35,264 nt of DNA from Terriglobia bacterium (GTDB lineage Bacteria > Acidobacteriota > Terriglobia > UBA7540), in contig JASHON010000023.1 of the NCBI GenBank assembly GCA_030041095.1, positions 1-35,264 on the forward strand, given 5' to 3'. Of this stretch, positions 26,637 to 32,105 are shown one piece after another. The translations under genes and the position numbers were made by a program. Each line of letters begins with the position of its first letter. Position 1 is the stretch's first letter. The notes beneath the pieces were generated by a model. The model saw nothing but the letters and a program-made list of their open reading frames with translations, was not told the origin of the DNA and made no database searches.

Positions 26637-27364
26637 AGCCCAAAATCCGCCCTCAATGGAACCTGACTCCGCGCCGCGCCGCTCGATTGCAGGAGCGGCT
26701 GCGCGAGCGCGTTGTGCTCGAAGACCACTTCGCTCCCGTGCGGACTGTGGCGGGCGCGGACCTGGCGTTTGATCCCCAAACCGGCACAGCTTTTGCCGGA
26801 GTTATCGTTTATCGTTTCCCGCAGATGGAAGAGCTGGAGCGCTGCTCGGCGCAGCGCCCGCTGCGGTTTCCGTACGTCCCGGGGCTGCTCTCGTTTCGTG
26901 AGAGTCCGGCGCTTCTGGCGGCTTTCGCACGCCTTCGCCTGGAACCCGACGTTCTGCTGATCGACGGTCATGGCCGCGCGCACCCGCGGCTCTTCGGCAT
27001 TGCCTGCCACATCGGCGTTCTGCTCGACAAGCCGTCCATTGGCTGCGCGAAGTCGCTTCTGGTGGGTGAGCATCGGGAGCTGGCTGAGCCGGCAGGCTCG
27101 ACTTGCCCTTTGTATTTCCAAGGCGAGCGCGTCGGCATTGTCCTACGCACTCGCGAAAGCGTCAAACCTATTTACGTGACCACGGGACACCGGGTCTCAC
27201 TGGAATCCGCCGTTCGTATCGTGAAAAAGTGCGTCGATGGGTTTCGCATCCCAAAGCCTACACGCGAAGCCGACCACTACGTCAGAGAGTTGCGCCAGGC
27301 GTATCAGCGATCGCGCGGAGCGCCACTGCCAAGTTCGGCATCCACAATTTCACAAAGAATGTGA
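26633..27364 (+). CDS. nfi: Endonuclease V
   Basis: A 243-residue nuclease that nicks DNA one base 3' of deaminated purines such as hypoxanthine. Expected metal ligands are D43 (AGADLAFD), E90 (FRE) and D111 (LLIDGHG). The strand-separating wedge motif is PYVP at 80-83, and GIACHIGVLLDKPSIGCAKS matches the family core. The TTG at 26633 overlaps the response-regulator stop (TTGA) and is the natural start. The C-terminal 20 or so residues exceed the usual family length and are encoded in a 61-base convergent overlap with gmhA, so this tail may be dispensable. Confidence 0.9.
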   Translation: MKPKIRPQWNLTPRRAARLQERLRERVVLEDHFAPVRTVAGADLAFDPQTGTAFAGVIVYRFPQMEELERCSAQRPLRFPYVPGLLSFRESPALLAAFARLRLEPDVLLIDGHGRAHPRLFGIACHIGVLLDKPSIGCAKSLLVGEHRELAEPAGSTCPLYFQGERVGIVLRTRESVKPIYVTTGHRVSLESAVRIVKKCVDGFRIPKPTREADHYVRELRQAYQRSRGAPLPSSASTISQRM

Positions 27365-27909
27365 GCGATCAGGATATGAGCTTCCTGGATTCGCGCGGTC
27401 ACTTCAGACGGGACGCATAAGCAGTATTGCGTGCTTTCAGCCATCGGGCCGCCCTTCTTTCCGGTGAGTCCCACCGTCGTGAGCCCGCACGTCTTTGCGG
27501 CAGACAGCCCCTTGAGCACATTCGGCGATTTCCCGCTGGTCGATATGCCAACTGCTACGTCGCCTCGTGATCCGAGCGCCAGCACTTGCCGGGCGAAGAC
27601 ATTTTCATACTCATAGTCGTTCGCAATGGCGGTGAGCGCAGACGTGTTGACGGTGAGCGCCAGGGCAGGGAGCGGATCGCGCTCGCGCTGAAACCGGCCC
27701 ACAAACTCCGCGGCGATGTGCTGAGCGTCGGCGGCGCTGCCGCCGTTTCCAAAGAGCAAAATCTTGTGGCCGGCGCGGAGCGCTCGAACGAGCTCAGCTC
27801 CCGTCGCGCCGATCAAATCCAGAAGCCGCGCGTCGCTCATCAGTGCTTGCTTGACGGCGACGCTCTCCTGAATGATGTTGCGGATCCTCGACGTTCGATC
27901 TTCATCCAT
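27304..27909 (-). CDS. gmhA: D-sedoheptulose 7-phosphate isomerase
   Basis: A 201-residue SIS-domain enzyme that converts sedoheptulose 7-phosphate to D-glycero-D-manno-heptose 7-phosphate, the first step of heptose synthesis for lipopolysaccharide core. It shows GmhA signatures FGNGGSAADAQHIAAEFVGR, GISTSGKSPNVLKGL, and the C-terminal EAHILIAHILCEIVD helix with a probable zinc-ligand histidine. The ATG at 27909 lies inside the last codons of the glycosyltransferase gene (overlap of 8 bases), indicating coupling; the frame is open further upstream but that part is antisense-like low-complexity Arg/Ser. Its 3' end overlaps endonuclease V convergently. Confidence 0.93.
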   Translation of the reverse strand: MDEDRTSRIRNIIQESVAVKQALMSDARLLDLIGATGAELVRALRAGHKILLFGNGGSAADAQHIAAEFVGRFQRERDPLPALALTVNTSALTAIANDYEYENVFARQVLALGSRGDVAVGISTSGKSPNVLKGLSAAKTCGLTTVGLTGKKGGPMAESTQYCLCVPSEVTARIQEAHILIAHILCEIVDAELGSGAPRDR

Positions 27910-29047
27910 GCATCTTTTCCTCAATGAATGCGGCCATTTCCGATTTGAAGCGAAAAGCGTCGAAACGTTCCGCCTGAGAGCGGATGAACGCCGGCGAAAA
28001 GCGTTTCTCCATGGATTCGAACAGGCGGATCGCATCGACCAGCGCTTCGACTGATTGCGGCGCAAAGAAGACGCCGGTGGAAGTTTCAGGAGTCGCCGCT
28101 TCTCCCACGCAAATTCCCTTGACGGTCTCCAGCGCGCCACCGCGGCCATACGCAATCACCGGCCGGCCATGGGCCTGAGCTTCCACAGGAACAATTCCAA
28201 AATCCTCCTCACCGGGAAAAAGCAGCGCGCGGCAATGCGCGTACTGCTCGTGCATCGCGTGCGGCTCGAGGTAGCCCAGGAAATCGACGTCCGGCCCGGC
28301 CGTCTTGCGTAGACGCGCGTATTCTTCACCGTCGCCAATGATCCGTAGCTTTCGCCCGAGCCGCCGGCACGCGCCGATGGCGAGATCGAGCCGCTTGTAT
28401 CGCACCAACTGGCTGGCGGCGAGATAATATTCCCCATCGCCCGCGCCGATTGCGGCCCCGGAAACGTCGCAGGGCGGGTAAATGACCGCCGCTTCACGGC
28501 GGTAATGCTTCCGGATTCGCGCGGCGACGTTTGCCGAATTGGCGACGAAGTGATCCACGCGCGACGCCGTGGCCAAATCCCACATTCTTACGTAATGCGC
28601 ACTGGCCGTGAAGACCGCGCGTGAAATTCTGCCCATGCCCGGACGCTCGCGGTAATCGTGGTACATGTCCCAAAGATACCGCATGGGCGAGTGGCAATAA
28701 CAGATGTGGCGAGTATGCGGCGTCGTCAGAACGCCTTTTGCGGGGCCCGATTCGGAGCTGATCACGAGGTCGTAATCGTCCACGTTCAGCGATTCTACTG
28801 CGAGCGGGAAAAAGGGAAGGAACTTCTGATAGTGTTTCTTGGCTCCAGGAAATTTCTGAAGAAATGAGGGTGTGATCCTGCGGGTTTGAAGCGACGGCGG
28901 TAGCGCAGCGCGATCGAGAACGAGTGTGAATAGGTCGGCTTGCGGGAACATCTCCGCCAGCGCCTCCACCACCCGCTCGCCTCCCCGCCGCGCCACAAAC
29001 CAGTAATGAACGATGGCCACGCGGAGATCGGGAAGGGAATTGGCCAT
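27902..29047 (-). CDS. GT4-family glycosyltransferase (WbaZ-like)
   Basis: A 381-residue GT-B glycosyltransferase. The N-terminal acceptor domain begins RVAIVHYWFVARRGGERVV with the glycine-rich loop and contains CYCHSPMRYLWDMYHDYRE, characteristic of mannosyl- and rhamnosyl-type transferases of the WbaZ group. The C-terminal nucleotide-sugar domain has the E-x7-E motif in EEDFGIVPVEAQAHGRPVIA. With gmhA coupled downstream and gmhB upstream on the same strand, a role in lipopolysaccharide or exopolysaccharide assembly is likely; the sugar is not readable from sequence. The ATG lacks a good ribosome binding site. Confidence 0.88.
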   Translation of the reverse strand: MANSLPDLRVAIVHYWFVARRGGERVVEALAEMFPQADLFTLVLDRAALPPSLQTRRITPSFLQKFPGAKKHYQKFLPFFPLAVESLNVDDYDLVISSESGPAKGVLTTPHTRHICYCHSPMRYLWDMYHDYRERPGMGRISRAVFTASAHYVRMWDLATASRVDHFVANSANVAARIRKHYRREAAVIYPPCDVSGAAIGAGDGEYYLAASQLVRYKRLDLAIGACRRLGRKLRIIGDGEEYARLRKTAGPDVDFLGYLEPHAMHEQYAHCRALLFPGEEDFGIVPVEAQAHGRPVIAYGRGGALETVKGICVGEAATPETSTGVFFAPQSVEALVDAIRLFESMEKRFSPAFIRSQAERFDAFRFKSEMAAFIEEKMHG

Positions 29048-29251
29048 TGTGAGTTCTGGAGTAGGTCTCCGGCTCGGTGCCCGCCGCGGCCCGCCAAGCG
29101 CGAGATCGGGAGCGTGGGCCTTGAGCCTGCTTCGGGGCGCGCTTCCTCAGCTTGTGCTTCCGGGACCGGCCCGCAAGCTGCCGCACGCAAAAGCGCCTAA
29201 GCGCGGGCGGTGCGCTAACTATCCACAAGCTGTCAGGATAGAGAACATTAA
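29048..29251. other. Leader region of the glycosyltransferase operon
   Basis: About 200 bases between the glycosyltransferase start and a TATAAT box, with no supported gene. It is GC-rich and would form the untranslated leader if transcription begins at the box at 29257-29252. Confidence 0.4.
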
Positions 29252-29257
29252 ATTATA
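29252..29257 (-). promoter_or_regulatory. Candidate -10 box for the glycosyltransferase-gmhA operon
   Basis: On the minus strand this is a perfect TATAAT in an AT-rich patch, immediately downstream of the fourth copy of the approximately 30-base box at 29259-29288. No consensus -35 lies 16-18 bases upstream, so an activator bound at the repeated boxes may be required. Inference only. Confidence 0.35.
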
Positions 29258-29258
29258 T

Positions 29259-29453
29259 GCTTTCAGTTGCTTGCCAGGTTACGCTGAATTCCGAACTCAT
29301 GAATTCCACATATCAATTTTGTTTTCAAATACTTGCTGGGATAGGCCGCACCGAATTCCAATATCGCTTTTATTATCAATAATTTACTGGGTTTGTTGGT
29401 AAGAGGCCAAAGAGCTAGCTCGTGTTTTCAATAACTTACTGGGATTGTTGGTA
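29259..29453. repeat. Four imperfect 30-bp boxes at about 52-bp spacing
   Basis: Boxes at 29259-29288, 29321-29350, 29372-29401 and 29424-29453 share a plus-strand pattern like TTTTCAATAACTTACTGGG, the last two followed by TTGTTGGTA. Start-to-start distances are 62, 51 and 52 bases. The second and third units also share an upstream GAATTCCA plus ATATC element. The region is markedly AT-richer than its surroundings and lies upstream of the leftward glycosyltransferase-gmhA operon. There is no open frame across it. It resembles iterated protein-binding sites or a decayed tandem repeat. Confidence 0.65.
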
Positions 29454-29459
29454 GCACAA

Positions 29460-29795
29460 CTCACTCGCATTCTATCGCACTGTCCTTACAATTACGCAGC
29501 CCAAGCAAGCTCCACCGGGGCGTTCGCCGGCCTGCCCGGGCGGCAACCAAACGTTTGCGAATTCCGGAACTCCGCAGGCGGTAACAGGATTCGCTCGAGG
29601 TTGCGCGAGCCCCAAAACCTCTCAATAAGCTCGCTCCGCTCGCAACCCTCCGCCCACCGGAGAAGCCTGCAATCGGCGGATGCGGGCCAACCCTCTTCCC
29701 TTGGGCAGGTGAACCCGGCGAAGGAGGGAGGGTGAGGAGTCTTTTCGTCCGAGAACACGGCAACCATTTCAAGTTTCGACCGGGGCCATGTATTT
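29460..29795. other. Gene-free stretch, possible element remnant
   Basis: A 336-base stretch with no recognisable gene. A leftward 91-codon frame (29767 to 29492) is open and lies downstream of a good promoter, but it has no ribosome binding site and its translation (with segments such as GCERSELIERFWGSRNLERI) resembles translated intergenic repeat rather than a folded protein. It is bounded by the AT-rich promoter on one side and the 52-bp-spaced boxes on the other, so an old inserted element is possible. Confidence 0.35.
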
Positions 29796-29825
29796 ATATT
29801 ACTTATGTAGCCTATCTTGTGTCAA
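29796..29825 (-). promoter_or_regulatory. Consensus sigma-70 promoter pointing left
   Basis: On the minus strand, a perfect TTGACA (complement of 29820-29825) and TAATAT (complement of 29796-29801) are separated by 18 bases. An ATG follows seven bases after the -10 and opens a frame of six codons (MAPVET). The downstream gene is unclear: a small unannotated transcript, the 91-codon frame, or the distant glycosyltransferase operon. Confidence 0.55.
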
Positions 29826-29930
29826 GGGGTTCACCCGGTTCGCCCCTCGGCGTCTGAGCGAAAACCGCATTCCCGGGAAATGGGTCACTTCCGGAGCCGG
29901 CCCAAAATCGCATGAGACCCGGAAGCAGGG

Positions 29931-30551
29931 CTAGCTCCTGGCGGGGCGCCATGCAACAATGTGCGCCGCAGCCTCCCGGAGGGACGTGGCCACGGCGTCC
30001 GGCAGAACGCCTTCGTTGCTCTCTCGCCTGTCACCTCTCGTTTCCTGGAGCGTTGCGTTGGGGCCGGCCGCCGTGCCCTCCGCGTCCTCTGAGCCGCGAG
30101 GCTTGTCCGAAACCAGGATGGTCCGGCAGCCGGCCGCCTTGCCGGCCCGAACGTCTTTCATCGTATCGCCGACCATCCAGGAGGCAGTGAGGTCGATGCC
30201 GTGCTCGCGCGCAGCCAGAAGAAGCATGCCGGGCTTCGGTTTTCGGCACTCGCATCCGTCCTCATCGCCGTGCGGGCAGCAATAGAGTGCATCAATGGCC
30301 GCGCCGCTCGTGCGAAGGCTGTCGCTCATTTTCTCATGAATCCGCTGCAATTCGGACGCGCTCATCAGTCCTCGCGCCACCGCCCGCTGGTTCGTTGCCA
30401 CCATCACCAGCCAGCCATCGTTCTTGAGCTTTCGGATCGCCTCCACAACGCCAGGAAGGAATTCGAATTCTTCCCAGCGCGTCACATAGCTCCCCTCCGG
30501 CATTTTCCGGTTGATCACTCCGTCGCGATCCAGGAATACAGCTTTTGTCAC
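29931..30551 (-). CDS. gmhB: D-glycero-beta-D-manno-heptose 1,7-bisphosphate 7-phosphatase
   Basis: A 206-residue HAD-IIIA phosphatase that removes the C7 phosphate of heptose bisphosphate in ADP-heptose synthesis. Motif I is FLDRDGVIN with D8 and D10, motif II is VATNQRAVARG, and the zinc loop has C92, H94, C100 and C102 (CCPHGDEDGCEC). Motifs III/IV are RKPKPGML and MVGDTMKDVRAGKAAGC. About 55 extra C-terminal residues (from 150) are low-complexity. The start is GTG at 30549-30551, preceded by AAGGACA, which is itself a unit of a short heptad array. gmhA is 2 kb away on the same strand; the kinase/adenylyltransferase and epimerase of the pathway are not in the window. Confidence 0.88.
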   Translation of the reverse strand: MTKAVFLDRDGVINRKMPEGSYVTRWEEFEFLPGVVEAIRKLKNDGWLVMVATNQRAVARGLMSASELQRIHEKMSDSLRTSGAAIDALYCCPHGDEDGCECRKPKPGMLLLAAREHGIDLTASWMVGDTMKDVRAGKAAGCRTILVSDKPRGSEDAEGTAAGPNATLQETRGDRRESNEGVLPDAVATSLREAAAHIVAWRPARS

Positions 30552-31236: not shown

Positions 31237-31453
31237 GGCCCTTGGTCACCTATCAGTTGGCCATGGTCCGACGTCAGTTGTCCTTAGTCCGTGGTCCGTC
31301 GTCAGTGGTCTTTAATCCTTTGTCATTCGCCGTTTGTCATTTGGCCGTTGCTTGTTGTTCCTCGTCCGTCGCGGCTTATCACCCGCCAATGCCCCATTGT
31401 GCCGTTTCCCCATTGCCCCCGGCCTATTGCGTGCTGAATTCTGACGTCTGATT
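31237..31453. repeat. Long 7-bp-period degenerate array, 31 units
   Basis: Thirty-one consecutive 7-base units stay in one phase without a single insertion or deletion. The first part follows xGTCxxT (CGTCAGT, TGTCCTT, AGTCCGT, GGTCCGT, CGTCAGT, GGTCTTT, TGTCATT); the later part drifts to units like ATTGCCC, ATTGCGT and TCTGACG. It fills the gap between the Phd antitoxin gene and the stop codon of the second PIN toxin. No frame is open through it on either strand with a plausible start, and seven-base units rule out a simple repeat peptide. Confidence 0.85.
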
Positions 31454-31458
31454 TCGAA

Positions 31459-31854
31459 TCACGGCAGTACGCTTTCGAGGTCAGTGTGGGAGAAGTCATC
31501 GCCCTTGAACAGAATCGGCTCCCCTGTTGCTTTGGCCAGGGCGTAGGCGAAGCAATCCCCAAAGTTCAGGCGCGCCGGATGGCCACTTCCTTTTCCGAAG
31601 TCGCGGTACGCCTCGCGAGCCAGACGCGCCTGCTCTTGTGTCACCGCCTCAACGGTAACCCGCCCGGTCCGTAAAAGCTCGTCGAAGCGCCTGCTGGCTA
31701 CGGGATCCCGGCTGCCGTCGATAACCACGGCCACCTCCACGTAATTGACGGCGGAAATGCGCCGGCTACTCGCGCTGGCAATCGCCTTTGCGCATGCCAT
31801 GGCTTCGGGCTCATCCCGCAGGATTGCAATCAGGGCGGAGGCATCGATAATCAC
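31459..31854 (-). CDS. vapC: VapC-type PIN-domain toxin
   Basis: A 131-residue PIN-domain toxin starting MIIDASALIAILRDEPEA, with the metal ligands D4 and E40 (NYVEVAVV) and a C-terminal RLNFGDCFAYALAKATGE block carrying the third aspartate, then LFKGDDFSHTD. This arrangement matches the VapC group paired with Rv0623-type antitoxins. It should be a site-specific RNase whose target cannot be read here. Its ATG overlaps the antitoxin stop by four bases. The 31-unit heptad array begins immediately beyond its stop codon. Confidence 0.9.
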   Translation of the reverse strand: MIIDASALIAILRDEPEAMACAKAIASASSRRISAVNYVEVAVVIDGSRDPVASRRFDELLRTGRVTVEAVTQEQARLAREAYRDFGKGSGHPARLNFGDCFAYALAKATGEPILFKGDDFSHTDLESVLP

Positions 31855-32105
31855 TTCGGCAGCCCTCTCTCGTCGTAGAGCAGCTCCCCATGGTCAGCGG
31901 ACCGGAACGGTTCACGCAAGTGCGCCGCGCAATCTTTGCCGATTTTCACCATGTCGTCGGCGAGCCCGGAGCCTCGTGCGCTCCTCAACCGGTCCAAGCG
32001 CTCCCGCACTGCCTCTGTGATCGCGGCGGTCGTCGTCTGCCCCGTAAGCCTCGCTAACTCTCTCGCAAGCTTTTGTGCCTCTTCGTTCTTGATGTTCAGC
32101 GCCAT
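31851..32105 (-). CDS. vapB: VapB-type antitoxin (Rv0623/PSK family)
   Basis: An 84-residue antitoxin beginning MALNIKNEEAQKLARELARL, the ribbon-helix-helix-like start of the Rv0623 family, followed by TGQTTTAAITEAVRERLDRL and a charged C-terminal toxin-binding tail. GAGG lies five bases upstream of the ATG. The stop overlaps the vapC start by four bases. The gene is divergent from the BrnA locus, and the shared gap holds three TACACC repeats and a TATAAT box that may serve both. Confidence 0.87.
   Translation of the reverse strand: MALNIKNEEAQKLARELARLTGQTTTAAITEAVRERLDRLRSARGSGLADDMVKIGKDCAAHLREPFRSADHGELLYDERGLPK

Follow-up and report, generated by a model that had tools for sequence, protein, structure and literature searches.

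Dispersed repeats shape bacterial genomes, and the well-described ones that have a partner gene are palindromic and are associated with known transposase families. In the window analyzed here, a stretch of 35,264 nucleotides from a Terriglobia bacterium, the repeats are unstructured, ordered, phased, and promoter-bearing, and copies in one genome resemble each other, but copies at the same address differ from species to species. In the REP/BIME and RAYT systems, as described in PMC2817692, the repeats have many intergenic copies and a species-specific sequence, and a partner gene adjoins a repeat copy; the cassette of the window likewise has many intergenic, species-specific copies, with a candidate partner gene beside an array. 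The two differ in several features. The boxes of the cassette are direct repeats without structure, and no inverted repeat was found in the window block, whereas REP sequences are palindromic and able to fold; the cassette has three boxes in a fixed order and its own promoter; its candidate partner protein, ALKHGL, has no Y1 transposase match; and its copies number in the tens, whereas those of REP exceed 100. In REP/RAYT, two inverted repeat copies flank the gene; here, an array was seen on the 3' side (a sense box lies near the stop codon of the best gene in 14 of 30 genomes).

Three other types of system share some features with the cassette. MITEs and other non-autonomous insertion elements resemble it in turnover between sister species and in apparently gene-deleted copies (L254 and L264, compared with L263), but no terminal inverted repeats, target duplication, or sharp ends were found for the cassette. 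Operator arrays and iterons also consist of same-strand repeated sites near whole helical turns, but the cassette is multiplied as a unit, undergoes concerted evolution, and lies beside unrelated genes. Conservation upstream of orthologs, a feature of operator arrays, is absent at the glycosyltransferase (GT) gene in 14 relatives, and at least nine of 31 positions are shared by G010 and G023. The ends of the transposons Tn7 and Mu contain several transposase-binding repeats, and the cassette is similar to them in having a short, ordered series of direct repeats, placed at one end of a unit that bears a gene; it is unlike them in that no transposase domain was found, dozens of arrays are solo, and no second end was recognized. 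By analogy, the most economical account would place the cassette nearest to REP/RAYT in life style, unrelated in sequence and structure and failing the palindrome and Y1 transposase features.

Box array of the window

An initial annotation described four boxes at 51–62-bp spacing. They are real, with steps of 52, 51, and 62 bp; three are strong, and the last (box D) is weak. The features of the locus are as follows.

29258–29825, minus strand: whole cassette (promoter, ~340 bp of unconserved leader, and box array), its extent judged from other copies
29796–29825, minus strand: sigma70-like promoter, TTGACA-18-TAATAT, with GATAGGCTAC between the hexamers
29423–29452, minus strand: box A, ACCAACAATCCCAGTAAGTTATTGAAAACA, core match 19/19
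29371–29400, minus strand: box B, step of 52 bp from A, core match 17/19
29320–29349, minus strand: box C, step of 51 bp from B, core match 16/19
29258–29287, minus strand: box D (weak), step of 62 bp from C, core match 12/19
27902–29047, minus strand: group 1 glycosyltransferase, the downstream gene (Pfam PF00534 and PF13439)
27304–28155, minus strand: SIS-domain gene, gmhA-like (Pfam SIS_2); the listed ORF start is probably too early
29931–30551, minus strand: HAD-type phosphatase, the upstream same-strand gene (Pfam Hydrolase_like), putatively gmhB-like

The top 30-mer direct repeat in 450 bp matched at 26 of 30 positions (maximum of 21 over 500 first-order shuffles), and repeat finding gave three box copies, 51 and 52 bp apart. 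Box C is without the ACCAACAA half and reads TATCCC, as in other copies of the window's own genome (G000). Equivalents of box D (≥12/19) are found at +164 to +166 from box A in five of 37 G000 copies, against 0.12 expected; because the same position is occupied in these copies, box D is a genuine, degenerate part of the element. The AT-rich character of the block in GC-rich surroundings was described correctly, the GC content being ~0.40 inside and ~0.6 outside.

The element is longer than first described and extends from the promoter at 29825–29796 to box D. A perfect TATAAT beside the last box, pointed out in the initial annotation, does exist on the minus strand; however, no −35-like hexamer is located 16–18 bp before it, and it is absent from the results of the promoter scan. 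The sole promoter-like site between 28900 and 30000 in that scan was 29825–29796 on the minus strand (one versus 0.2 expected). The sequence favors a predicted transcription start near 29790 (minus strand) rather than near 29245.

Elsewhere in the window, arrays of 7-bp near-repeats are present at 1758–1828 and 31264–31318, and 7-bp repeats of a similar kind (CAACTGACNACTGA) run up to the arrays of L017, L020, L023, L037, and L038. A VapBC-type pair look-alike, made up of a PIN-domain-like ORF with a small ORF upstream of it, was noticed at 31459–32105 when the translations were judged by eye.

Dispersed copies and their promoter

G000 comprises 4.88 Mb in 207 contigs. A blastn search with the block gave 39 matches, and a sequence-only profile built from 34 copies gave 47 (40 full length, four partial, and three fragments). 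The box therefore does occur elsewhere in the genome, as the initial annotation proposed to check, in about 44 array copies. Thirty-four of 37 loci were aligned (alignment A1); L010, L033, and L035, which are truncated or two-box copies, were left out. Three distinct boxes follow each other in a constant order in G000: A begins with GACCAACAAACCC, B follows 50–52 bp on, and then C. In L030, an additional box is found 41 bp after D. The steps of 41, 50–52, and 62–63 bp are near four, five, and six helical turns. The mean pairwise identity over the 34 copies is 0.83 for the boxes and 0.475 for the spacers. RNAalifold predicted no base pair over the same copies, and therefore the constraint is most simply placed on the DNA. 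The view of the boxes as same-orientation, phased, DNA-level sites thus holds for this genome. A CRISPR array was considered and rejected, since the spacers are homologous between copies and the boxes are position-specific. A contig end lies within 1 kb of 13 of 36 arrays (4.3 expected), an excess that fits repetitive or strain-variable DNA, as expected.

A sigma70-like promoter of their own accompanies the arrays. At 12 of 37 G000 loci (23,890 bases), TTGA-N-ATAGGCTA (≤1 mismatch) occurs on the strand of the array, no more than 700 bp upstream, compared with four matches in 518,648 bases elsewhere. Some copies thus show no detectable promoter, and this counts against the cassette reading. The motif TTGANNNNNATAGGCTA has 12 exact matches in the 4.88 Mb, of which 11 are just upstream of a same-strand array and the twelfth is ~300 bp or less from a contig end. 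Allowing one mismatch added 12 matches, only two of them beside an array. The promoter copy of the window has a gap one base longer than this motif and had already been found by the blind scan. In two species of one genus (G010 and G023), TTGAC...CTAGCATGGTAGCCT (≤4 errors) precedes 52 of 60 arrays by 104–420 bp, with nine other matches elsewhere in the same loci; this site differs from, but is analogous to, the G000 promoter motif. A plain TTGAC-N16-18-TA...T pattern was found at 34/57 arrays of G010 and G023, 6/33 of G000, 5/8 of G050, and 1/12 of G001.

Other repeats accompany the G000 arrays. A second dispersed repeat of ~150–200 bp has inverted ends (CAGGCTGCGGAAAAACTC ... GAGTTTTTCCGCAGCCTG) and GCCGGCATCTTGCCGGC hairpins, and it is present in both orientations in many array-bearing intergenic regions; in L009, L012, L032, and L036, it is situated between the promoter and the array. 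A TGTCATNCTGAGCNNAGCGAAGCATC-like phrase recurs beside the arrays of L014, L017, L019, and L022 and is probably another interspersed repeat.

Divergence among relatives and position relative to genes

Sequence-divergent versions of the array with their own pitch recur across a single Acidobacteriota family and are nearly absent outside it. The G000 profile finds matches in 17 of 39 genomes of the family. The core GTTRTTGAAAAYAA has 390 exact matches in 31 of the 39 (reversed-pattern control, 0) and at most four per genome among 260 other genomes of the class. The GTTRTTGAAAAYAA half is common to the family genomes, and the other half and the pitch vary by genome: 51 bp in G002, 65–66 bp in G010 and G023, 77 bp in G050, 41 and 52–53 bp in G015 and G008, and two kinds, 50 and ~140 bp, in G001. 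The pitches of 65–66 and 77 bp are not whole numbers of 10.5-bp turns, which counts against a phased-array reading, and helical phasing is therefore well supported for G000 only. The exact G000 box pattern gave no match in genome-contig and viral-contig collections, from which the window's genome and records close to it may be missing. A looser two-box pattern matched 118 genome-contig stretches; among the 80 listed, most were from unrelated, largely AT-rich genomes, and these matches were taken for chance. No description of the cassette was found in full-text literature searches; such a negative does not prove that none has been printed, and as far as could be found the cassette is apparently undescribed. 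In G001, a second array type (L276–L280), with boxes ~140 bp apart and long, well-conserved spacers, is located beside a TGACGAGCAAACCC motif and coexists with the 50-bp type.

G010 and G023 have arrays at orthologous places in at least nine of 31 positions, and coordinates suggest three further shared positions. Three of six judgeable unmatched positions (folP, accC, and a CPBP gene, none with an array in G023) are array-free in the sister species; at these loci, the intergenic DNA differs throughout, and no clean empty site was seen. The median identity at the nine orthologous places is 0.94 for boxes and 0.66 for spacers, compared with 0.35 and 0.45 for the flanks and 0.78 for coding sequence (L363/L338 is out of register but was kept, and L264/L354 was left out). 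The spacer identity of random array pairs is 0.68 between the two genomes and 0.84 and 0.78 within each. Because same-address spacers match only as well as random between-species pairs, and within-genome pairs are more alike, the arrays undergo concerted evolution. The spacers follow the genome, not the address, while the boxes are held between species, and this selection on the boxes argues that they are read by something.

The initial annotation also offered a tandem repeat at the edge of an old insertion, which came close in that the repeats belong to a dispersed element; the marks of an insertion were not recovered. No inverted repeat pair was found within 28900–29900, and neither target duplications nor sharp element ends were found in the window and the compared array pairs. 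The shared stretch ends at differing distances in different copy pairs, which counts against the cassette reading. The site before accC is a variable slot between conserved genes: where G010 has its array, G023 has a HicA/HicB-like pair, read by eye (C20, L420).

Here, we propose that the boxes of the window are, on balance, probably one copy of a dispersed, semi-mobile, non-coding cassette that carries a phased protein-binding array and is multiplied or homogenized in each genome. In the cassette, a sigma70-like promoter would be followed by a leader whose length varies and then by about three same-strand boxes of ~30 bp (up to five if weak ones are counted). The boxes may be recognition sites for one DNA-binding protein, several molecules of which would bind along one face of the helix. 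Multiplication or homogenization within each genome would give each species its own version, and the copies would settle in intergenic DNA, mostly ~240–340 bp upstream of a gene and pointing toward it.

The orientation of the arrays bears both on this proposal and on a role for the host. In G010 and G023, the downstream gene is co-directional in 40 of 55 arrays (five of 60 loci without a called downstream gene were left out), at a median distance of ~290 bp and mostly at 240–340 bp; in G000, it is co-directional in 24 of 35. In the other 15 of 55, the next gene has its 3' end toward the array, which counts against the cassette reading. The flanking gene pairs in G010 and G023 are 25 ++, 12 −+, 7 +−, and 7 −−. 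Neighbors read from translations include guaB, folP, ruvC, mnmG, gapA, and ligA. With this gene-facing bias and with addresses that are conserved, a host function is conceivable. A host regulon, in which the cassette would be kept as a stable promoter and enhancer-like control region because a global regulator bound at the boxes tunes the downstream, in many cases household, genes, would account for the co-directional genes in both data sets and their distance of mostly 240–340 bp, for the dedicated promoter, for targets such as those named above, and for the at least nine positions common to the sister species, where boxes are 94% alike among decayed flanks. However, the targets have no evident function in common, three of the six judgeable positions have no array in the sister species, and the spacers at shared positions follow the genome rather than the locus. 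Boxes upstream of orthologous operons, whose absence was half of what the initial annotation had set down as evidence against itself, were found at none of the 14 GT orthologs in relatives (one with just 539 bp of upstream sequence). Because of this absence and the 15 wrong-way copies among 55, the classical regulon is disfavored, and we regard it as unlikely.

matS and the nucleoid-occlusion sites are chromosome-organizing site families. Membership in a family of this kind, with the promoter being incidental, would fit an AT-rich block with same-face triple sites dispersed in tens per genome, but it is improbable, because the tight promoter linkage and the gene linkage would play no part in it. 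That the repeats encode a structured regulatory RNA or leader element is quite improbable: the upstream promoter would transcribe the array, but beside the lack of any RNAalifold pair in 34 copies, Rfam gave no match and no intrinsic terminator was found within 200 bp after the array in the 91 arrays tested. Control specific to lipopolysaccharide genes, suggested by the position of the array 211 bp before the glycosyltransferase gene, which belongs to what looks like a cluster of heptose and glycosyltransferase genes, is rejected as the specific function and has almost no likelihood left, because the same array has unrelated genes as neighbors at >40 G000 positions and the 14 orthologous upstream regions are box-free.

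ALKHGL as a candidate partner gene

The semi-mobile cassette would have a REP/RAYT-like life style, with a rare partner gene beside an array, many gene-less copies, and a species-specific sequence. The candidate for the partner is the ALKHGL gene, whose 3' end abuts an array. ALKHGL is an uncharacterized protein family, called after the motif STGPRS.AGKRR..LNALKYG. In several genomes, the gene ends at or just before an array: in G023 and G050, its stop codon falls within the first box; in G015, the stop overlaps the array; and in G010 and G054, 19 bp separate the stop from the array that follows. In G000, the gap is ~700 bp. When the best gene of each genome was taken, 14 of 30 genomes had a sense box (≤2 mismatches) between −165 and +265 bp relative to the stop, 11 of them with ≤1 mismatch, compared with four matches of a reversed control pattern across the whole of the same loci. 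The other 16 of the 30 best genes have no box near the stop in the available flank, some flanks being short, and a box lies just after the gene in only one of 14 readable paralogs in G024. Because these 16 genes and 13 of the 14 paralogs are without a box, the link is restricted to a subfamily.

Two arrays of G010, L254 and L264, keep the first and last ALKHGL codons with the middle gone when compared with the gene-bearing L263, and they resemble gene-deleted copies, as such copies would appear in sequence. The ALKHGL protein has no recognizable domain in Pfam, NCBIfam, PHROGs, or PDB sequences, and no match to Y1 (HUH) tyrosine transposases was obtained for three ALKHGL proteins in Pfam/NCBIfam at E values up to 10. 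A single-sequence AlphaFold model of the G015 protein had a mean pLDDT of 46, too poor for a fold.

A more specific form of the cassette proposal can be put forward tentatively: a new dispersed element, made of a portable promoter and phased direct repeats, may be spread and homogenized genome-wide by an uncharacterized DNA-binding mobility protein of the ALKHGL family that co-evolves with the box, giving each species a private version, and it may be partly kept by the host as a common control region before household genes. If it moves or homogenizes the arrays, the partner protein would represent a new agent of mobility or gene conversion. Should the host make use of the arrays, a widespread soil phylum would have, in one of its uncultivated lineages, a genome-wide promoter system that is rapidly rewired.

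The ALKHGL-type family is hugely expanded in some genomes, with 41 matches in G024 and 25 in G011. Relatives of its N-terminal motif are also present in seven viral contigs.
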